A DNA stretch of 64,000 nt, from NCBI RefSeq assembly GCF_009668025.1, contig NZ_WJXZ01000001.1:425814-489813 (forward strand), read 5' to 3'. The translations under genes were made by a program, and so were the position numbers. The notes under the pieces were generated by a model, which was not told the origin of the DNA, did no database searches, and saw only the letters and a program-made list of their open reading frames with translations. This document shows, piece after piece, positions 1,958 through 10,223 of the stretch (position 1 is its first letter; each line of letters begins with the position of its first letter). This stretch comes from Larkinella terrae. Lineage in GTDB: Bacteria; Bacteroidota; Bacteroidia; Cytophagales; Spirosomataceae.

Positions 1958-2521
1958 TCACTGCACCGTCAGGTCAAAATCCACGTTGACGTCGTCGCTG
2001 CCCGGTGTGGGTGTGCCATACTTCGCGTTCGGCTGGTGACGCAGTTGCACTTTTAATTTCCCCGTACCGGCTGCGTTCGTTTTGAGCGTTCCCTTCAACC
2101 CAATGGGCAGGTTTTTGGCGTCTTTATCGCCGTAAGTATACGTCGCCAGCGTGGTCGGATTGGGCGTGAAGACAAACAAATGCTCATTGCTTTTTTCGGC
2201 GACTTCCTTCGAAACATCGTCCACCGGCGTTTTGCTTTCGTCCAGCAACTCCACGGCCAGATCGTAAGTTTTGTTGGCTTTCAGCGTAATCTTGTCAAAT
2301 TTCGTCGGGGCCTGGCCCCCATCGCCGTCGGTATCGCGGTACGAAAACGTCTGTGTTGTCGTGGTTCCCGATTCCGTAAATTTCAGGTTAACCGTGGTGA
2401 TCAATTCATTTTCATCGGCCGGTTCGGGCTCGTCAGCCTTGTCGTTACAACCCGCTACCAGCGCCATCGACGCAACCAGCGCTACCATCCACAACCCGCG
2501 ACGTGTTCGTATTGCCTTCAT
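1958..2521 (-). CDS. Lipoprotein of a putative metal-uptake locus
   Basis: Start chosen at 2,521 (MKAIRTRRGLWMV...), not 2,554, because it places a lipobox (S-M-A-L-V-A-G-C) at a normal distance, after a positively charged n-region. The mature protein begins with an acidic linker (NDKADEPEPADENE) followed by about 150 residues of predicted beta structure with Asp-Gly rich turns (R-D-T-D-G-D-G-G), possibly a calcium- or metal-binding loop. I do not recognise the family with certainty. It is divergent from the MerC-like gene, and the shared 150-base promoter region carries GCAAC palindromes, which suggests both belong to one metal-responsive regulon. Many Bacteroidota TonB loci have a similar small lipoprotein. 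A surface or periplasmic metal-binding role is inference. Confidence 0.7.
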   Translation of the reverse strand: MKAIRTRRGLWMVALVASMALVAGCNDKADEPEPADENELITTVNLKFTESGTTTTQTFSYRDTDGDGGQAPTKFDKITLKANKTYDLAVELLDESKTPVDDVSKEVAEKSNEHLFVFTPNPTTLATYTYGDKDAKNLPIGLKGTLKTNAAGTGKLKVQLRHQPNAKYGTPTPGSDDVNVDFDLTVQ

Positions 2522-2572
2522 TTTTGTTACTGTTTTAGCTTTTTCGGTCGACAATTTTTATCGACCCGGTGG

Positions 2573-2580
2573 CAAAAATA
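2573..2580 (-). promoter_or_regulatory. -7 box of the divergent lipoprotein gene
   Basis: CAAAAATA on the plus strand reads TATTTTTG on the minus strand, a match to TAnnTTTG, 52 bases upstream of the lipoprotein start at 2,521. The expected -33 region falls inside the GCAAC palindromes, so a repressor bound there would block this promoter. Confidence 0.5.
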
Positions 2581-2587
2581 GATATTC

Positions 2588-2624
2588 GCAACAACGTTGC
2601 AAAAATAAATGCAACATAATTGCA
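2588..2624. promoter_or_regulatory. Candidate Fur/Zur-type operator (GCAAC palindromes)
   Basis: Two perfect inverted repeats lie in tandem: GCAAC-AAC-GTTGC at 2,588-2,600 and TGCAA-CATAA-TTGCA at 2,610-2,624. The half-sites between them also pair (GTTGCA at 2,596-2,601 with TGCAAC at 2,610-2,615). The block is in the intergenic region of the divergent lipoprotein and MerC-like genes. The arrangement is what a dimeric repressor of the Fur family would bind, and TGCAA-type half-sites with a MerC-like neighbour favour a zinc- or metal-dependent one. The regulator is not in the window. Confidence 0.6.
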
Positions 2625-2671
2625 AATAATCTTGTTCAGTACGGAACCATGCACTTATTTTGCATTGTCCA

Positions 2672-3070
2672 ATGAAAAAACAGGCTGCTATGAAACTGGA
2701 GGTACTAAACAGAAAGGCGGATTACATCGGAATCAGTGGGTCGGTATTGTGCATTATTCATTGTATGATTACGCCCATTTTGCTGGTCTCTTCCTCGTTT
2801 CTGACCAATGATACGGTGCGGTTTGGCTACCTGAGCCTCGATTACGTTTTCATTGGCGTCAACATCGTGGCGGTTTATTTTGCCACCCGGCATTTCACCA
2901 CGCCCGCCATCAAAGCCGGTTTGTGGTTTTTTCTGAGTGTTTTTGCCGTTGCTATTTTGCTCGAAGAGGTGAGCGAAACGTTTGAATACCTCGGGTATGC
3001 GGCTTCGTTAGGACTGGTTTTGACGCACCTCATCAACATCCGGTTTCACCGGCTGCGGCACTCGCATTAA
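2672..3070 (+). CDS. MerC-domain membrane protein
   Basis: A 132-residue protein with four hydrophobic helices, the topology and size of MerC. The start at 2,672 is the first ATG; a TTG four codons earlier is less likely. Helix 1 carries the metal-binding type motif C27-II-H30-C31 preceded by Asp17. MerC in mercury operons moves Hg(II) across the inner membrane; chromosomal Bacteroidota homologues usually lie next to Fur-family regulators and are thought to handle zinc or other soft metals. Here the upstream region has GCAAC palindromes, and the gene converges on the di-haem peroxidase gene with 16 bases between the stops. Mercury resistance is unlikely because merA, merP and merT are absent. 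Zinc or copper handling is inference. Confidence 0.8.
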   Translation: MKKQAAMKLEVLNRKADYIGISGSVLCIIHCMITPILLVSSSFLTNDTVRFGYLSLDYVFIGVNIVAVYFATRHFTTPAIKAGLWFFLSVFAVAILLEEVSETFEYLGYAASLGLVLTHLINIRFHRLRHSH

Positions 3071-3086
3071 AAACCCAATTTTTCGA

Positions 3087-4181
3087 TCAATCCGGCTGGA
3101 AACGGCGATCTTTCATAAAATCGCTGTCGGTCAGGGTTCGCAGGAAAGCCGCAATGTCCGCCTTTTCGTCGGTGGTAAACGAGAACCCGGTTTTTCCGTT
3201 TTTCTTCAACAACGGGTCCAGTTGGGGCGTATCCTGCACGTCGTTCATGTAGTGATCCAGCACTTTTTCCAGCGTCGTGAAGCGGCCGTCGTGCATATAC
3301 GGTGGGGTCAGTTCGACGTTCCGCAGGCTCGGCACCCGGAATTTATTGTAGTCATTCTGATTGAGCGTAATCTGATACCGTCCCAAATCAAAGTCCTTGC
3401 TGTTAGCGAGTTGCATCCGCAATCCGTTGTTCCGGTAACTCTGATCGGTAAACTGCTCACCCGCGTGACAGGCCGAACAATTCTGTTTGAACAGGGCCAG
3501 CCCGCGCAATTCCTGGTCCGTCAGGGTCGCACCGGCTTCTTTCCGGATGTATTTATCGTACCGGGATGTGGCCGAAACCATCGTCAGCATAAACTGCGAC
3601 AAGGCTTTCAAAAACCGCTCGGTCGTTACTTCTTCCGTTCCAAAAGCCGCTTTGAACAGCGCCGGATACTGCCCGCTCGACCGAACTTTCTTCAACACAT
3701 TCGCCAGGGAATCGCCCATTTCGACCGGGTTCTGAATCGGCGAAATGGGCAGTAAGTCGAGGTCGACAATGCCGCCATCCCAGAAAAACGCCTGTTTCCA
3801 GGCTACATTCTCAATGCCGGGGACGTTGCGGGTACCAATTTTATCGTTAATGCCGTGGCTCAGCGGATGGTCGGTATGGGCAAAACCGGCAAAGGGAGAA
3901 TGGCAGAAGGCACAGGTAATTTTACCGTCGCGCGACAGAATCCCGTCGTAAAACAGCGTTTTTCCCAGCGCAACACCTTCTACCGTGAGCGGATTTTTGG
4001 TGAAATCGTAATGCGGTTCCTCAAAATTAGCCGGTTTTTTCCAGTTGTAAGGCGTCGCCTTAAACTCAACCGGTTTGGGCTCCGGTTCGGGGTCACCCTT
4101 CCCGGAATCGTTCTGACAGCCGATCGCGAAGCCATAGAAAACAATTGCCGCCACTATTCCCGCATGTTGCCAACGCGTCAT
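3087..4181 (-). CDS. MbnH/MauG-like di-haem cytochrome c peroxidase, lipoprotein
   Basis: 364 residues with a lipobox (F-A-I-G-C22) and two c-type haem sites, C90-AF-C93-H94 and C235-SA-C238-H239, in the spacing of bacterial di-haem peroxidases and MauG. The segments 'G-T-R-N-V-P' (about 116-121), 'F-W-D-G' (133-136), 'S-P-I-Q-N-P-V-E-M' (147-155) and 'P-P-Y-M-H-D-G-R-F' near the C-terminus are family hallmarks. It is the last gene of a minus-strand run that includes an MbnP-like protein. In the characterised methanotroph pair, MbnH is such a di-haem protein and oxidises a tryptophan of its partner MbnP to kynurenine. A plain H2O2-scavenging peroxidase is the alternative. The pairing, rather than the sequence alone, argues for the MbnH role. 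Confidence 0.82.
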   Translation of the reverse strand: MTRWQHAGIVAAIVFYGFAIGCQNDSGKGDPEPEPKPVEFKATPYNWKKPANFEEPHYDFTKNPLTVEGVALGKTLFYDGILSRDGKITCAFCHSPFAGFAHTDHPLSHGINDKIGTRNVPGIENVAWKQAFFWDGGIVDLDLLPISPIQNPVEMGDSLANVLKKVRSSGQYPALFKAAFGTEEVTTERFLKALSQFMLTMVSATSRYDKYIRKEAGATLTDQELRGLALFKQNCSACHAGEQFTDQSYRNNGLRMQLANSKDFDLGRYQITLNQNDYNKFRVPSLRNVELTPPYMHDGRFTTLEKVLDHYMNDVQDTPQLDPLLKKNGKTGFSFTTDEKADIAAFLRTLTDSDFMKDRRFQPD

Positions 4182-4317
4182 ATCAATCTACCTCTACGCC
4201 CGAATTTAGAAAGCTAATTTACTACATTAAAACGTCCGAACGCTAATTAACGTATGACGGACTTCCCTGCTCCTTTCCAAAAGTATGCCAATTGTTACCC
4301 GAATTACCCAACTGGTC

Positions 4318-4785
4318 TCATTCTTTCAGATACTTTTCGGCATCGGCCATCTTGTTCCGCATCCGCTGGCTCAGGCTGGTCACTTTCAACTGTTGACTTC
4401 TCAGGTACGCCAGACCATTTTTCTCATCCAGTTGCTGCAGCGTATCGCCCTTATACTGGTGCATCCAGTCCGTCATCCGGTCATCGGTTTCCTTCAACTC
4501 CCGAATGATCTGCCAACCGCGTTCCTGCTCCTTGCCAGCGTTTTTTTGCACTTTTAACGAAACATCTTCCTGAAGTTGCATCAACGCGCCCATCCGGTCC
4601 ATCAGGCTGTCGTGAACCGCCAGCACTTCCTTTTCCAGATCAGCGACCGGCCCCGGCAACGCAGTCTGAACGGACGAATCGGGGTGATGGTGGTGATGGG
4701 TTTCGGCCTGTTTGTTGGATTCACAAGCCCCGTTGAACAAAACCAGAAAACCTATTACTAAAACCGTACTTATATCATTCTTCAT
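4318..4785 (-). CDS. Small His-rich lipoprotein
   Basis: Start placed at 4,785, which gives a short signal and the lipobox F-N-G-A-C21; the frame extends to 4,860 but the extra residues would spoil the signal peptide. Right after the lipid anchor comes a run of five histidines (residues 30-34) followed by Pro-Asp, a typical flexible metal-binding tail. The rest (about 50-155) is a predicted antiparallel helical pair rich in Lys, Glu and Gln with conserved-looking 'H-D-S-L-M-D-R-M-G' and 'D-W-M-H-Q-Y' patches. Similar Bacteroidota proteins are loosely annotated as viral A-type inclusion proteins because of the coiled coil; that name carries no function. It lies between the small Cys gene and the peroxidase gene. 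A periplasmic metal chaperone or buffer is plausible. Confidence 0.7.
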   Translation of the reverse strand: MKNDISTVLVIGFLVLFNGACESNKQAETHHHHHPDSSVQTALPGPVADLEKEVLAVHDSLMDRMGALMQLQEDVSLKVQKNAGKEQERGWQIIRELKETDDRMTDWMHQYKGDTLQQLDEKNGLAYLRSQQLKVTSLSQRMRNKMADAEKYLKE

Positions 4786-4865
4786 TGGTAACCAGCGATT
4801 TATCTGAAAATACAAAAATCCTACAGCGCTTTTTACCCGCACAAACCGGATAAAAGGCATACCGC

Positions 4866-4887
4866 CTGACCGCGTCCATGCGGTCAG
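4866..4887. repeat. Short hairpin between operon genes
   Basis: CTGACCGC (4,866-4,873) and GCGGTCAG (4,880-4,887) form a perfect 8-bp stem with a 6-base loop, between the small Cys gene and the His-rich lipoprotein gene. No U-run follows on either strand, so it is more likely an mRNA stability or processing hairpin than an intrinsic terminator. Confidence 0.5.
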
Positions 4888-4916
4888 CAGTCATTCGATT
4901 GCCTGTTGATTTTGCT

Positions 4917-5294
4917 TTACCGACAGGGCGGATGCATGACATCGGCTAAAGGCGCCGAATAGGAAAGGAGTTGATAAATGAAGCTGGCTTTTGTGCACAA
5001 AACCGGTACCCTGGGCCGGAACGCAAACCACAAAAGGGGCTGCGCATACAATTGAAGAACGGGCGTGTTCTGCACCCGTTCGTTGGTTTGCTGATCCTGT
5101 TTTTCCTGCTGCGCTTTCAGCCGTTTCGCGAGGTAACATTGTCCGTCGCAATGCAACTCGGGCCGGGAGCGGTTTTCGCACAACACCCGGGCAATGTACT
5201 CCCTGTTGAGCTGGAAATAGGCAATCGTTCCCCACCGACTGAACGTCGGCAGCAGAACGGCGAATAACCAGCTAAAAAGAAGTAATTTCCGCAT
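4917..5294 (-). CDS. Small conserved Cys-motif protein (copy 1)
   Basis: 125 residues from the start at 5,294, chosen because the longer frame would run into the MbnP gene. An N-terminal hydrophobic segment (residues 3-16) is a signal peptide or anchor. The key patch is C39-ENR-x-x-P-ELH-C49-DGQ-C53-YLAKRL, followed by a charged Gln/Lys/Glu helix. A paralogue at 9,849-10,223 keeps all three cysteines at identical positions. The C-terminal half is poorly conserved between copies. The three cysteines plus His48 could hold one soft metal ion. I know this only as an uncharacterised Bacteroidota family. Its place between MbnP and the His-rich lipoprotein suggests a metal-handling role. Confidence 0.75.
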   Translation of the reverse strand: MRKLLLFSWLFAVLLPTFSRWGTIAYFQLNREYIARVLCENRSRPELHCDGQCYLAKRLKAQQEKQDQQTNERVQNTPVLQLYAQPLLWFAFRPRVPVLCTKASFIYQLLSYSAPLADVMHPPCR

Positions 5295-5320
5295 AACCAC
5301 GGACCGCCGAGCGGCCCCGT

Positions 5321-6124
5321 TCAATCAACCTGAACCGTACCGACACTGAACATGGTCGCGTAATTATTCGCGACGTTCCGGGAGGAATCTGACACCATGA
5401 TGTCCGGGCTTTTCGCAATACTGAGCGGTTTGACTCCGTCGAACAGTTTCAGTACGTCCGCCTTGATCTGAACATTGGTTTTTCCATTCACAACCACCTG
5501 GGCAGTTTGCGGGTTGAACGCCAACTGAATGGTTTTCAGGTTATTGATGGTTTTGGTTTTATACCCGCCAAACAGGCCGATGTGGTACATAAAATTACGG
5601 CTTCCGGTCGCATCAACCGGCGCTTTGGCCGAAGTGCCTTCCAGTTTCAGGAAAATATAGCCCGAATTCCAGTCCCAGTACATGCCCGACGCCAGACCGC
5701 CGGGGTCCAGCGCGCCCGTCCGTTTTGCGATATCCATCGTATTCCGCAGACTATCCACCCCGACGACAAAGTCGATGCCCGTATATTCATCTGCGGGAAT
5801 ATTACGGAGCAAAATCGACTGGGAGGCCGCGTTGCTTTCCATTACCAGAAAATAACTGCTGTCCTGCGGCACTACGTACGACGAGCCATCCGCCTTTTTT
5901 AACTTGATGTTACTTACGAAGTAGTTCAGTTTCGTAACGGAAAAAGGCTCACCGCTGCCGTTCGTATAAGTCGTTCCATCGAGTTTTAAGTCACTGGCTC
6001 CGACCACGTTATCAAATCTCAACTGAACCGAACCGTATTCCGGTTCCAGCGGATCATCGTGGCAGGCAATCAGAACCAATATGAAGAAGAATACGCTCAT
6101 AACTGAAAGAAGGGAGTTTTTCAT
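5321..6124 (-). CDS. MbnP-family copper-binding lipoprotein
   Basis: 267 residues with lipobox L-V-L-I-A-C21. Family signatures are clear: 'V-T-K-L-N-Y-F-V-S-N-I' (63-73), 'I-D-F-V-V-G-V-D-S-L-R-N' (117-128) and 'M-Y-W-D-W-N-S-G-Y-I-F-L-K-L-E-G' (148-163), then 'Y-H-I-G-L-F-G'. MbnP was described as the periplasmic partner of MbnH in methanobactin operons of methanotrophs, where it binds copper after a tryptophan is oxidised. Trp150 and Trp152 are the only obvious candidates here. Apart from the lipid-anchor Cys there is no cysteine, so it is unlike the four-Cys members of the wider family. It is 13 bases from the upstream BNR gene and 26 bases from the small Cys gene, consistent with one transcript. 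Confidence 0.88.
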   Translation of the reverse strand: MKNSLLSVMSVFFFILVLIACHDDPLEPEYGSVQLRFDNVVGASDLKLDGTTYTNGSGEPFSVTKLNYFVSNIKLKKADGSSYVVPQDSSYFLVMESNAASQSILLRNIPADEYTGIDFVVGVDSLRNTMDIAKRTGALDPGGLASGMYWDWNSGYIFLKLEGTSAKAPVDATGSRNFMYHIGLFGGYKTKTINNLKTIQLAFNPQTAQVVVNGKTNVQIKADVLKLFDGVKPLSIAKSPDIMVSDSSRNVANNYATMFSVGTVQVD

Positions 6125-6137
6125 AATTCAACGTTGC

Positions 6138-7334
6138 TTAAAATGACTCAATCCATCTGCTTACTATAACGCTGTTTTGCTGGTTTTTCTGCTGTTCATA
6201 CGCGACTAAAAGCCCTTTTTTGGTCGCCAGCAGCACTGGGAAAACCGCATTCACGTCCGTCGGTGTCAGGTAAGTAATCGGCGAAGCCGTGCCGTTGACA
6301 ATCTTCCGCATGCCGATCCGCGAAATAAACCGACTCTCGCCAGCCGCGTTTTTCAGTTCCATCGACTCATCCCACACCCACACCAGTTGCCCGTTGACTG
6401 AAGCCACCTGAGGGTGCTTGGTCCGCTCGGAAACAATCCCCGAAACCAGTTGCGTCGAGCCCAGCTTCGCCAGTTTAATACCAGGCATTTTTTCGCCCCC
6501 CGAAAACCAGGTTACGAACAGATCGTTGCCAACCTGCGCCACGTCGGGGCCGGTGTGCGGACACGCATTCACTTTCCACTGGTCGTTAAAAACCACTTTC
6601 GGGCTGGTGAACGTCCGTCCGCCGTCGGTCGAAACCGCGTGACTGATGTCCCGCGCGCCGTCGTCCAGCAAATCGCGGTAGGCAACGTGAATCTGGTTTT
6701 TCGCATCGACGAACACGTTGGTCCGGCAGCACTGGCAGGCGTTGTCGTCCACCAGAACCTCCTTCCCAAAACCGCCCCCCGCCAGGGTTTGGGTAAACTT
6801 CACGGTCCGGCCTTCCTTGCTGGCGGCTTTTTCGTCGAGCCACACAATCCCGATTTCGCCATTGGGCAAGCGGTTCAAGTTGCTGAACGAGTGGCCTTTG
6901 CCCGCAGTCACGTCGCGGTGGACGGCTTTGGGGTCGGTCCAGGTTTGGCCACCGTTGGAGGAGGTTACAAACAGCAAATCTCCGGCGCGGGGGGCGTCAG
7001 TTGTCGGACGTGACACTTCAAAAGTGGCCAGAATCGTGCCGTCTTTCTTAAACGCTACTTTCGGCATGCCTTCGGCGTGGGTCGAAAAAACCGCCGGTGA
7101 ATTCACCCGGTTTTTCTCGCCGAACGTCCGACCGCCGTCTTCCGATACGGCAAAATAAAAATGAACCTTATCGCCTTCTTTTTCCGTCCAGCTCAACACC
7201 GGGTTGTTCCGGTGATCGGTAGTCAGGCGCGGGGTGGCCCCGACAAACTGCGGATTCGAAAGGCGGATCTCTCTGGCGGGCCGTTCGGCGAATCCAAACA
7301 ACAGGACGGCGGCAATGAGAAGGATGTTTTTCAT
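6138..7334 (-). CDS. Secreted BNR/sialidase-fold propeller protein with Cys cluster
   Basis: 398 residues with a signal peptide ending near A-E-R-P-A20. Three Asp-box repeats (S-x-D-G-G-x-T-[FW]) occur at about 64-71, 126-132 and 235-242, so a sialidase-like beta-propeller is expected. True sialidase activity is doubtful because the Arg triad and catalytic Tyr/Glu are not evident and the neighbours are metal genes. Instead a cysteine cluster is present, C200-Q-C202-C203-R-T, with C258-P-H260 in a later blade; together they could form a metal site. The gene lies 36 bases after the TonB receptor and 13 bases before MbnP. Annotation pipelines would call this an exo-alpha-sialidase; I think a metal- or MbnP-related periplasmic role is more likely. 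Confidence 0.75.
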   Translation of the reverse strand: MKNILLIAAVLLFGFAERPAREIRLSNPQFVGATPRLTTDHRNNPVLSWTEKEGDKVHFYFAVSEDGGRTFGEKNRVNSPAVFSTHAEGMPKVAFKKDGTILATFEVSRPTTDAPRAGDLLFVTSSNGGQTWTDPKAVHRDVTAGKGHSFSNLNRLPNGEIGIVWLDEKAASKEGRTVKFTQTLAGGGFGKEVLVDDNACQCCRTNVFVDAKNQIHVAYRDLLDDGARDISHAVSTDGGRTFTSPKVVFNDQWKVNACPHTGPDVAQVGNDLFVTWFSGGEKMPGIKLAKLGSTQLVSGIVSERTKHPQVASVNGQLVWVWDESMELKNAAGESRFISRIGMRKIVNGTASPITYLTPTDVNAVFPVLLATKKGLLVAYEQQKNQQNSVIVSRWIESF

Positions 7335-7370
7335 GGAAATAAAGATTTTCGGTTGGGGGCGCTATTATTG

Positions 7371-9737
7371 TTACTGTTTAGAAAAATTGTACTGAATTCC
7401 GCCCACCAGCGTCCGCGGAGCCGCAGGCGTGTAGGTCGTCCGGTCGGTGGCGTTGTTGCCGCGCGTGGCCGAGGTTGCGTAGAGTTCGTTGGTGGCATTC
7501 ATCAGGTTGGCAAACACCTCAAACCGCTTCAGCGCATAACCGGCCCGCAGGTTGACGACGCTGATGCCTCGCCCGCCAAACGCGCCCCGGTCGTTGTACG
7601 AAACCGTATTGACCTGATTCTGGTACCACGAACTGATCCGCTGCCATTCCGCCGAAATCCGGAAACCCTTCACCCAGCGCGGTTTATAGGTCAGTTCGGT
7701 ATTGGCCACCCAGCGCGGAGCCTGCGGCATATCGAACCCGTTCACGTTTTTCAGGGCATCCGACGCGCGGGTGCTCAGCGCAAAATCGATAAACCGGTGG
7801 ACGGAATTGGTGCCACCAAACCGGAAAAACCACTGGCTCGACGGGCGGTACGTCAAACTATACTCAACGCCCCGGTGCAGCGTCTGGCCCGCCGACTGGT
7901 AATCGGTGCTGTTATCGGGCAGGCGGATGTTGAGCAATTCGTTGCGACCATCCATCTGATAAAAAGCCACATCAACGTACACCTTCCGGTTCAGGAACGA
8001 GGCCCAACCGCCGACTTCGTAGTTATTGAAATACGCTGGCTGCAGATTGTAATAAAACAGCGGATCGCCCGGCTGAACGTTGACGCGTTTGGTAAAAACC
8101 GAAGTCAAAACCGGTGGCGAAAAACCCTGACTGTAATTTGCGTACAAACCCCGATCGTGACCCAGATCATACGTTAAACCGACTTTGGGCGTAAACCGGC
8201 TGTAGTCTTTCCGGCCGGTGCTTTTGTCCAGGTAATTGTCGTAATCAAACGCCATCCGGTCAAACCGCCCACCCAGCGAAATCCGCAGTGCAGGCAACGG
8301 ATTCAGGTCCAGTTGTGCGTAAACCGCCGAGTTGTGAACGTCGGCGGAATAATCAGCCAATTGAAGGTCAGTACGTTCCTTCACCAGCTTATACTGTTCC
8401 ACCGATTTTTTATCGGGCCGCAACTGAGCCTCCAGATCGATCTGGTAGGCATTATAGGTCGTTGGTGATTCGTCAATCACCAATCCGGCTAGCAACCGGC
8501 TATTCCAGAACGGCAACCGCTGGCTGTGCTGGGCAACCAGCCCGTAACTAGTGAATGCATTGACGTTGATCTGGCCTGTCGCTTTGGTAGCGCCACTCGT
8601 CCAGCGGATGCCGTAACTCGGATTCTGTCCAATTGAATTGTCGCGATAGAACGCCGTTACGAAGCTTTCGGAGCCGTTTTTCCAGGCATGATCGAGCGTC
8701 AGCCGCGAGCGAACAGCCCGTACTTTCCGGTACGTAAAATCGGAAGTCGACGTATATTGCCGGTTGTAAAACGCAATGCTGTCGACGCTGCCGCCGGTTT
8801 GCGAATAATAATCGTTGTACGAAAACGTGCCCGTCAGTCGCGTCCGGCCGGTAAACGCGTATTCGGCCCGGCCATTGAACGACACCTTGTCGTAGTCGGA
8901 ACGGGTCTGCCAGCTATTGCGTTGCCGGGCAAAAAAACCGCCCGCGTAAACGCCCAGCTTCCTGGTCAGCATGCCGCCCCCGCCGTATTGAATGCGGCCG
9001 TAATTCCACTGATCGCCTTGAATACCCAACCGAAACGTCGGCACGGCCGTCGGTCGCTGCGTGATGAAATTGATGGCACCCCCGACGGCTTCCGGGCCAT
9101 ACAGCGACGACGCCGGACCTTTCACAACCTCCACCGAACTGATGGTGAAGATGTTCATTTCGATCAGCGCATTATGGTTAAACACGCCCATCGGCCGGAT
9201 CGGCAGACCGTCTTCGAGGTACAGGAAATAGGCATTGGTCCCGAACGGCTGCCGGATGCCCATGCCGTGCTGCTCGTTGTTGTAATTGAGCATCACCACG
9301 CCCGGTGTTTTGTTGATCAGATCGGTCAGCAAGGTCGGCTTGGTTTCGTCAATTAACGTGGGCGAAAGCCGGGAAATGGCCACGGGCGCTTCGGTCCGTT
9401 TCTGCGCTTCGCGGTTGGCGGTAACGACAATCGTTTGCAGATTTTCCACGGCGGGTTCCAGCGCAATGCGCAGCGGTTTATCCGACGGTTTCAGTTCCTG
9501 CGACTGAAAACCGACCGCCGAAATCACCAGTTTTTCGGTGGCCGTATGGAATGAAAACTGACCATTGGCATCCGTAATGGTACCGGTTTTATGATCATCC
9601 GACGAAACCGTCACGCCCGCCAGGGGCTCTTTGGTTTTGGCGTCGAAAATAGTGCCTTGTATACTCGTTTGGGCGAACGCCCGAAAGGGTGTCATTACCA
9701 CGAAAACCGCAGCAATGAGCCGGTATAAAAATGTCAT
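7371..9737 (-). CDS. TonB-dependent outer-membrane receptor
   Basis: 788 residues: signal peptide 1-23 (cut after A-F-A-Q), a carboxypeptidase-like regulatory domain (about 26-100, 'G-T-I-F-D-A-K-T-K-E-P-L-A-G-V'), a plug (about 110-225, with 'V-E-V-V-K-G-P-A-S-S-L-Y-G-P-E-A-V-G-G-A-I-N') and a 22-strand barrel ending in aromatic 'Y-N-F' near the C-terminus. It imports a ligand across the outer membrane using TonB energy. There is no SusD partner, so this is not a glycan-utilisation pair; the classic siderophore/metallophore receptor layout and the MbnP/MbnH neighbours point to a metal or metal-chelate ligand. The gene heads the minus-strand cluster or follows the small Cys gene at 9,849 across a strong hairpin. 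Confidence 0.92.
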   Translation of the reverse strand: MTFLYRLIAAVFVVMTPFRAFAQTSIQGTIFDAKTKEPLAGVTVSSDDHKTGTITDANGQFSFHTATEKLVISAVGFQSQELKPSDKPLRIALEPAVENLQTIVVTANREAQKRTEAPVAISRLSPTLIDETKPTLLTDLINKTPGVVMLNYNNEQHGMGIRQPFGTNAYFLYLEDGLPIRPMGVFNHNALIEMNIFTISSVEVVKGPASSLYGPEAVGGAINFITQRPTAVPTFRLGIQGDQWNYGRIQYGGGGMLTRKLGVYAGGFFARQRNSWQTRSDYDKVSFNGRAEYAFTGRTRLTGTFSYNDYYSQTGGSVDSIAFYNRQYTSTSDFTYRKVRAVRSRLTLDHAWKNGSESFVTAFYRDNSIGQNPSYGIRWTSGATKATGQINVNAFTSYGLVAQHSQRLPFWNSRLLAGLVIDESPTTYNAYQIDLEAQLRPDKKSVEQYKLVKERTDLQLADYSADVHNSAVYAQLDLNPLPALRISLGGRFDRMAFDYDNYLDKSTGRKDYSRFTPKVGLTYDLGHDRGLYANYSQGFSPPVLTSVFTKRVNVQPGDPLFYYNLQPAYFNNYEVGGWASFLNRKVYVDVAFYQMDGRNELLNIRLPDNSTDYQSAGQTLHRGVEYSLTYRPSSQWFFRFGGTNSVHRFIDFALSTRASDALKNVNGFDMPQAPRWVANTELTYKPRWVKGFRISAEWQRISSWYQNQVNTVSYNDRGAFGGRGISVVNLRAGYALKRFEVFANLMNATNELYATSATRGNNATDRTTYTPAAPRTLVGGIQYNFSKQ

Positions 9738-9807
9738 GATTACGTTCAGGTTTGATCAAATGGAAGAATGAACCGCTGGACAAAACCCAGTGGTCTAAAC
9801 TTTCTAC

Positions 9808-9836
9808 ACCTGAAAGGTCTTCAAGACCTTTCAGGT
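9808..9836. repeat. Palindromic hairpin, 14-bp perfect stem
   Basis: ACCTGAAAGGTCTT (9,808-9,821) and its exact complement AAGACCTTTCAGGT (9,823-9,836) flank a single base. A run of five T follows on the plus strand at 9,836-9,840. It separates the small Cys gene (ends 9,849) from the TonB receptor (starts 9,737), so on the minus strand it would act as a partial terminator or processing site. CTGAAAGG palindromes of this kind are, from memory, dispersed repeats in several Bacteroidota. Confidence 0.75.
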
Positions 9837-9848
9837 TTTTATCTCAAA

Positions 9849-10223
9849 TCAAACCTGAGGAGGTTGCAGCCAATGAAGCAGTGGAGAGGAATAGGATTTC
9901 AGCAGATAATCCGGCAAATCGGCCGAGCGGTTTGGGGTAACCGGTTTAAATGAAAACGGCACCTCAATCTGGCAATACAGCTGAAAATCCGGCGTTTTCT
10001 GGACGCGTTCGGTGGTAGCCTTATCCTGCTGTTCCTGTTGGGCGTTCAGGCGTTTGGCCAGGTAACATTGCCCGTCGCAGTGCAACTCCGGTTTGGCGCG
10101 ATTTTCGCAGAGGACACTGGCAACGTAGTCTTTGTTGACGTGGTAATACGCAATCGTTCCCCACTGGCTGAAACTGGGCAGTAGGGTGGCAATCAGCAGG
10201 ATGTAAGCCAGAACGGTGCGCAT
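9849..10223 (-). CDS. Small conserved Cys-motif protein (copy 2)
   Basis: 124 residues, paralogue of the gene at 4,917. The N-terminal 60 residues align without gaps: hydrophobic leader, W21-GTIAY, then C39-ENR-A-K-P-ELH-C49-DGQ-C53-YLAKRL. The C-terminal half differs (ends in a Pro-rich, aromatic tail). It is the first gene of the minus-strand cluster, separated from the TonB receptor by a hairpin. Two copies at both ends of the receptor/MbnP block suggest duplication within the locus and possibly a role with different partners. Function is unknown; a thiol-based periplasmic metal chaperone is one idea. Confidence 0.75.
   Translation of the reverse strand: MRTVLAYILLIATLLPSFSQWGTIAYYHVNKDYVASVLCENRAKPELHCDGQCYLAKRLNAQQEQQDKATTERVQKTPDFQLYCQIEVPFSFKPVTPNRSADLPDYLLKSYSSPLLHWLQPPQV

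Follow-up and report, generated by a model that had tools for sequence, protein, structure and literature searches.

In Bordetella pertussis, CruR heads the operon of a TonB-dependent receptor (TBDT), senses copper through a CXXC motif and requires a C-terminal RAPP sequence, and its homologues are described as leading TBDT, SCO and MbnPH-like operons (PMC9426467). Arrest of CruR was later demonstrated in vitro (PMC12992588), and in more than 75% of crtA loci, arranged as cruR-crtA-PepSY_TM, the third gene is reported to be PepSY_TM (PMC12914433). CutF of Rhodobacter carries a CxxxC motif and a Pro-rich C-terminus; a stalled form was not detected in the work described there (PMC9973294). The CutF-like filter given in the same source selects proteins of <150 aa that have Pro-Pro among their final 15 residues and a same-strand gene within 1000 nt. 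Its catalogue of 29 clusters includes many proteins from Bacteroidota, and TonB-like genes are frequent neighbours. A 2025 survey confined to RAPP and RGPP described leader ORFs of copper genes as missing from Bacteroidota (PMC12992588), and Sec-linked uORFs ending in Pro are described as found only in Bacteroidota (PMC10987492). MbnP/MbnH pairs outside methanobactin operons, some of them near TBDTs, have been reported since 2013 (PMC3621798).

The window, i.e., the whole stretch of 64,000 nucleotides that was analysed, belongs to a 7.85-Mb genome of Larkinella type. The gene content given in the original prediction stands: all nine ORFs (a TonB receptor, a propeller with a Cys cluster, MbnP, two small Cys proteins, a His-rich lipoprotein, a di-haem peroxidase, MerC and a further lipoprotein) were confirmed in place, with Pfam support wherever a family exists (MerC, 61.7 bits; CCP_MauG, 174.6; MbnP, 185.2; BNR_2, 34.8; TonB barrel, 115.4, plus plug). 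No Pfam family was found for lip1, hisL, cysS1 or cysS2. Several listed ORF starts are over-long, and the likely starts, corrected from the sequence, are 2521 for lip1, 2672 for merC, 5294 for cysS1 and 4785 for hisL. Transcription of the minus strand follows the order cysS2, TBDT, propeller, mbnP, cysS1, hisL and mbnH. The stretch probably holds two units, this run from cysS2 to mbnH and a zinc unit formed by merC and lip1, and on sequence and analogy we judge it reasonably likely that the run is an operon for copper acquisition under the control of two copper sensors that act as nascent chains. Between two gene ends, at 1831-1957, lie nested direct and inverted repeats of the TGACGATTGACC type.

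The receptor module

The TBDT (788 aa; 7371..9737, minus strand) is followed by a secreted BNR beta-propeller (6138..7334, minus strand). We collected 58 distinct loci in which the propeller scores at least 300 bits, leaving out before counting nine duplicates whose contigs had been fetched twice (L044, L045, L047, L149, L150 and L157-L160). A same-strand TBDT lies upstream of the propeller in 55 of these loci, and in 52 of the 55 a cysS gene lies upstream of the TBDT. The loci lacking a TBDT are L135 (contig end), L153, where cysS and shorter ORFs occupy its expected place, and L156; those with a TBDT and no cysS are L039 and L114 (both contig ends) and L163. Among weaker propellers (200-300 bits), one of four has both TBDT and cysS. 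An mbnP gene occurs within 3 kb downstream of the propeller in 18/58 loci, a share that is not an unbiased frequency, since the loci were chosen via MbnP or propeller hits. The trio also stands without mbnPH in the stretch (L109-L113, L115, L116 and L118). With a propeller of at least 400 bits as the marker of the receptor module in family genomes (n = 41), a listed MbnP lies within 1.5 kb in at least 15, and seven of the 41, several of them draft genomes, have no MbnP among the matches listed. Thus, the conserved core is cysS-TBDT-propeller, rather than the unit of receptor, MbnP and MbnH that had been proposed. Across the class, any propeller match was found in 61/295 genomes and one of at least 140 bits in 11/295. 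In a genome of another family (L126), a weaker CDCC propeller stands directly ahead of mbnP-mbnH-mbnH, without a TBDT.

Eight residues of the receptor, M149, H157, M159 and H188 in the plug and H404, H621, H647 and M670 in the barrel, are invariant in 55/55 related receptors, whereas a further 22 hits, including two that are not TBDTs, lack this Met/His set almost entirely at the equivalent positions. CrtA, to which the TBDT is only distantly similar (74 bits), differs in having two conserved His and no conserved Met or Cys, against three invariant Met and five invariant His here. In OprC of Pseudomonas aeruginosa, also a TBDT, Met/His residues have likewise been proposed for copper, but in the present receptor the HxM is located in the plug and no Cys is conserved among the 55 aligned receptors, so that an OprC-type CxxxM-HxM site, as described, is absent. 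Among solved structures, the PQQ receptor PqqU/YncD is the closest (119 bits), followed by assorted other receptors, as might be expected if the TBDT imported a non-copper ligand (siderophore, haem, PQQ or another) and the copper genes were its neighbours for other reasons. Both the invariant Met/His set and the partners, which include the cysS leader, MbnPH, SCO1-hisL and PepSY_TM, argue against such a ligand, and we consider it unlikely. A TBDT of this family is followed by PepSY_TM, in place of the propeller, in L073 (58.8 bits) and, weakly, in L210 and L220 (33 and 30 bits).

The Cys cluster of the propeller consists of CQCC (residues 200-203; codons 6726-6737) and CPH (residues 258-260; codons 6555-6563), i.e., C200, C202, C203, C258 and H260. 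The four Cys are invariant in 70/70 propellers; high-scoring ones also keep H260 (58/58), H86 (57/58) and E88 (58/58), and low-scoring ones have H260 in 4/12 and E88 in 1/12. The structural model of the propeller is of good quality (pLDDT 87.5), and similar folds are seen in propellers of the sialidase-like, lectin and CylK kinds. At the sequence level, the protein is 95% identical to the propeller of Larkinella rosea.

Candidate leader ORFs

cysS2 (124 aa; 9849..10223, minus strand) and cysS1 (4917..5294, minus strand; 26 nt 3' of mbnP and ahead of hisL-mbnH) are homologues with 56% identity in the alignment, in agreement with the relationship predicted for the two small Cys proteins. Overlooked in that prediction was the Pro-Pro at both C-termini, QPPQV in cysS2 (Pro codons 9858-9863) and HPPCR in cysS1 (Pro codons 4926-4931), which makes both look like copper-responsive leader ORFs. 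cysS2 has a hydrophobic N-terminus and the motif C-x-N-x3-P-x3-C-x-G-x-C, which is present in 90 of 93 non-identical cysS; the three Cys are invariant. Pro-Pro lies within the final 12 residues in 93/93 cysS, compared with 1/342 other recognised genes and 6/1007 long ORFs, counts that carry a bias because the cysS profile was made from Pro-Pro-ending proteins, Pro-Pro columns included, and favours such hits. The spacing from the last Cys to Pro-Pro is 64-71 residues in all 93, H, Q or R immediately precedes Pro-Pro in 80 (mostly F[HQR]PP), and exactly two residues follow it in 60. The region between the last Cys and Pro-Pro varies in sequence; a low-confidence model leaves it without structure and places a hydrophobic helix at residues 2-29.

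A profile of 57 cysS matched in 156/288 Bacteroidia genomes. Among 30 loci sampled across the class, 29 have a readable copy (L199 does not), and each of the 29 retains Pro-Pro and is followed within 300 nt by an ORF on the same strand; four of them are re-finds already among the 93 (L171, L172, L182 and L196). The genes next to these copies include TBDT, mbnP, hisL, c3-family and YtkA-like genes and also a ferredoxin-type (L173) and a kelch (L175) gene, so not every next gene is a proven copper gene. For the set of 93, a recognised same-strand gene lies within 700 nt in 91 cases, with median gaps of 76-126 nt, and cysS is found ahead of mbnP-mbnH, hisL-SCO1 and TBDT-PepSY_TM as well. The lipoprotein gene hisL (4318..4785, minus strand), whose product has an HHHHH run, belongs to a family that sits with SCO1/SenC in 7/12 distinct loci. 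A same-strand ORF occurs within 150 nt upstream in 37/93, and cysS is therefore not always first. In L205, L206 and L208, cysS stands directly ahead of a YtkA-like protein gene followed by a gene for a 682-aa protein, perhaps another copper block.

In the cysS-TBDT-propeller core, as in cruR-crtA-PepSY_TM, a small leader that looks exported and has both a Cys motif and a Pro-Pro at its C-terminus is encoded ahead of the TBDT, and one more gene comes after the receptor; CruR homologues and cysS are alike in also heading MbnPH-like and SCO genes (the former as described in PMC9426467). The third gene here, however, is usually a CxCC propeller rather than PepSY_TM, and cysS differs from CruR in its lack of a DUF2946 match, in CxGxC instead of CXXC, in F[HQR]PP instead of RAPP and in a spacing of 64-71 residues instead of 45. 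PF11162 (DUF2946) gave no match in cysS1 or cysS2 of the window (E 0.1) or in the cysS of L068 (E 0.05), and in the 291 class genomes searched it matched two, with no cysS hit at either locus. One of these two matches (L169:1399-1794) is a His-rich DUF2946-type ORF of a Bacteroidia genome; it ends in SLRGPPSYFLAV, with RGPP, and is a candidate RGPP leader distinct from cysS. With respect to CutF, cysS falls within the filter published in PMC9973294, some ORFs as called exceeding 150 aa through over-long starts, and the family may already lie within the catalogue given there. CutF is described as using a stem-loop, with expression that rises with copper (PMC9973294). In the gap between cysS2 and the TBDT (9738..9848, minus strand), a perfect stem-loop follows soon 3' of the cysS2 stop (z -2.7), but structure of this kind is hardly peculiar to cysS gaps: z is below -2 in 47/74 of them and in 31/80 controls (means -2.35 and -2.19; p 0.017), which is barely beyond the controls. 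An excess of C over G in the 3' part of cysS is modest, being positive in 81/93 but in 51/70 TBDT ends too.

Several of these features could also be read differently: (i) the three Cys are invariant, (ii) metal-gene neighbours are common and (iii) some copies, such as cysS1, are internal to operons, all of which would suit an ordinary periplasmic Cu(I) carrier that binds through its Cys motif and uses Pro-Pro for anchoring or partner binding, with no translational arrest. We regard such a carrier as somewhat unlikely, since Pro-Pro is kept in 93/93 at a near-fixed distance across a stretch that is variable and modelled, at low confidence, as unstructured, and since the layout is that of CruR and CutF. 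As judged from these sequence features and from the analogy, cysS is probably a leader family, unlike DUF2946, that governs a copper-acquisition operon; this is the best reading of the data.

MbnP, MbnH and the merC unit

MbnP (5321..6124, minus strand) is a lipoprotein that retains W150-D-W152 (5669-5677) and H181, which align with the WxW motif and His of the solved MbnP 7l6g in a weak match (20.5 bits). Its score against PF20243 exceeds the cut-off of 27 bits, whereas that against TIGR04052 (MbnP-like) is 58 bits, below the curated cut-off of 140. The MbnH-like di-haem enzyme (3087..4181, minus strand; CAFCH and CSACH motifs) scores 226 bits against TIGR04039 (MbnH family), below the cut-off of 363, yet this is its best NCBIfam match; among solved structures, ordinary di-haem peroxidases match it best (153 and 149 bits), with MbnH 6e1c behind at 139. 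By sequence, then, both proteins are relatives scoring under the curated TIGR cut-offs. They resemble the described MbnP/MbnH pairs (PMC3621798; PDB 7l6g, 6e1c) as an adjacent-type pair, sometimes near a TBDT, with a WxW motif and a di-haem partner. They differ in these scores, in the absence from MbnP of any Cys beyond that of the lipobox, in the loss of its C-terminal His motif, in the placement of cysS1-hisL between mbnP and mbnH, and in the absence of an MbnB-family gene. With regard to the last point, PF05114 (MbnB/TglH/ChrH) has no match in the 7.85-Mb genome, and the same search as a control matched in 2/14 genomes; the claim that methanobactin genes are lacking thus holds for the MbnB family, PF05114 being the family searched.

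MbnP is ordinary in Bacteroidia, with PF20243 matches in 112/150 family genomes and 218/295 class genomes, and the MbnP/MbnH pair is likewise ordinary here. In 38 distinct family loci, mbnH lies within 2 kb downstream for 50 of 52 mbnP, and cysS within 2.5 kb upstream for only 30 of the 52. Downstream of MbnP with a C-terminal DHVH-type His motif, c3 is found in 28/29 cases, compared with 3/41 for MbnP without the motif, a pattern in the sequences that suggests two working types of MbnP. The MbnP of the window has neither this motif nor c3 downstream. The c3 proteins (~302 aa; e.g., L060:7320-8234, in a cluster of 30, duplicates included) are encoded 3' of mbnP-mbnH and have no Pfam match; the L060 member has ACDICGC after the signal. 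A third MbnP-like type, in which SW[MA]W[HQ]xSY replaces WxWNSGY and ETG replaces HIG, was seen at L034:12601-13434, L077:6375-7166, L079:9759-10670 and L064:12131-12931, each adjoining its own mbnH-like gene.

The proximity of MbnH to ordinary di-haem peroxidases would fit a role of the MbnPH part in copper or peroxide defence instead of uptake, and leaders of the CutF-like type are reported to head efflux genes too (PMC9973294). Against this, mbnP comes after the uptake module in 18/58 propeller loci, and MbnPH-like genes are described in CruR-led operons (PMC9426467); we find defence quite unlikely. MbnP and MbnH are indeed accompanied by a receptor and accessory genes of their own, as originally proposed, and metal uptake remains the best reading. 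The system was also predicted to be uncharacterised; MbnP/MbnH pairs beyond methanobactin operons had been reported in 2013 (PMC3621798).

Convergent with mbnH is merC (2672..3070, plus strand), which encodes a MerC-family membrane protein recognised by Pfam and is probably part of a separate, Zur-like unit; lip1, a lipoprotein gene without a family (1958..2521, minus strand), diverges from it. The predicted GCAAC palindromes between the two are real and take the form of a 15-mer, TGCAAY-N3-RTTGCA, present once with one mismatch (2587-2601, CGCAACAACGTTGCA) and once perfectly (2610-2624, TGCAACATAATTGCA) within 38 bases, with a weaker third site at 2650-2664. Boxes with 0-1 mismatch also occur at merC in L037, L046, L041 and L051 (L044 and L037 being one contig); within the part scanned, none was seen for L032, where the called ORF start is over-long, or for L033, a short stretch. 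One-mismatch sites alone mean little, as the genome has 41 boxes with at most one mismatch compared with 26 for the reversed pattern. Of the five perfect boxes in the genome, one is that at merC/lip1, one precedes a ZnuD-like TBDT, one separates a further pair of genes and the remaining two fall within ORFs. The ZnuD-like receptor (L101:67-2427, contig C14 of the same genome) has ZnuD as its best solved relative (63 bits) and a perfect box 13 nt before its called start, and is a likely partner of merC/lip1. The palindromic boxes at merC/lip1 and at this TBDT recall Zur regulons with ZnuD receptors, and from these sequences merC and lip1 are probably a Zur-like zinc unit.

The original prediction had placed MerC and a Fur-like operator within the system, which is now doubtful. 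The merC gene adjoins mbnH convergently in six distinct loci (the window, L032, L037, L046, L041 and L051), in only four of which lip1 is recognised as well, and this recurrence speaks for some link. If the whole stretch were one metal-import system, including MerC and the Fur-like operator, the boxes would not be expected to mark merC while none of the five perfect ones precedes cysS2, nor would another perfect box precede the ZnuD-like receptor. Moreover, the operon occurs without merC in the stretch in L034, L035 and L036, and in L033 merC is 7.7 kb away. A single system is accordingly improbable, and two units are the preferred reading.

A possible copper circuit

The ribosome tunnel holds ~30-35 residues, and about as many span the Sec channel. 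Together with the spacing of 64-71 residues, these lengths would put the Cys cluster of a nascent cysS at the periplasmic face, which would suit the sensing of periplasmic copper. For the copper-acquisition operon that we favour, the following can be envisaged. In copper shortage, a ribosome on cysS2 would be held at the C-terminal Pro-Pro, and the TBDT and propeller genes would stay on. With copper in plenty, the metal would bind CxN...CxGxC of the exported nascent chain and release the stall, and downstream expression would drop, as reported for CruR; the reverse sign, as for CutF, could apply. The TBDT would bring in copper or a copper chelate past the Met/His residues of its plug, and the propeller, with CQCC and CPH, may take up or relay periplasmic copper. 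MbnH would oxidise Trp in the WxW motif of MbnP to generate a copper site, and cysS1 may tune hisL and mbnH separately. MerC and lip1 next door would act as a Zur-like zinc unit.

More tentatively, and with a little less confidence than in the operon itself, we suggest that a family of nascent-chain copper sensors exists that is peculiar to Bacteroidota, marked by CxN...CxGxC and by F[HQR]PP near the stop, unlike DUF2946 and present in over half of the sampled Bacteroidia genomes. Given its spacing, the Cys cluster would sit at the periplasmic opening of the Sec channel once the ribosome has reached Pro-Pro, and several leaders per operon could set separate copper thresholds for the receptor, MbnP/MbnH and SCO1 blocks. 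CutF-like proteins of Bacteroidota had been catalogued before; what is added here stays within a known category and consists of a TBDT operon that has new parts and lies under ORFs resembling copper leaders.

If the leader reading is true, the cysS family would fill the Bacteroidota gap of the 2025 survey, as described there, with a different stalling sequence (PMC12992588). Because F-[HQR]-P-P differs from the RAPP/RGPP sequences tested for arrest, cysS would also readily allow arrest to be tested in the absence of Arg-Ala. Outer-membrane copper import is poorly known, and the family would name a likely copper receptor, its propeller and its MbnP/MbnH partners in a major phylum.
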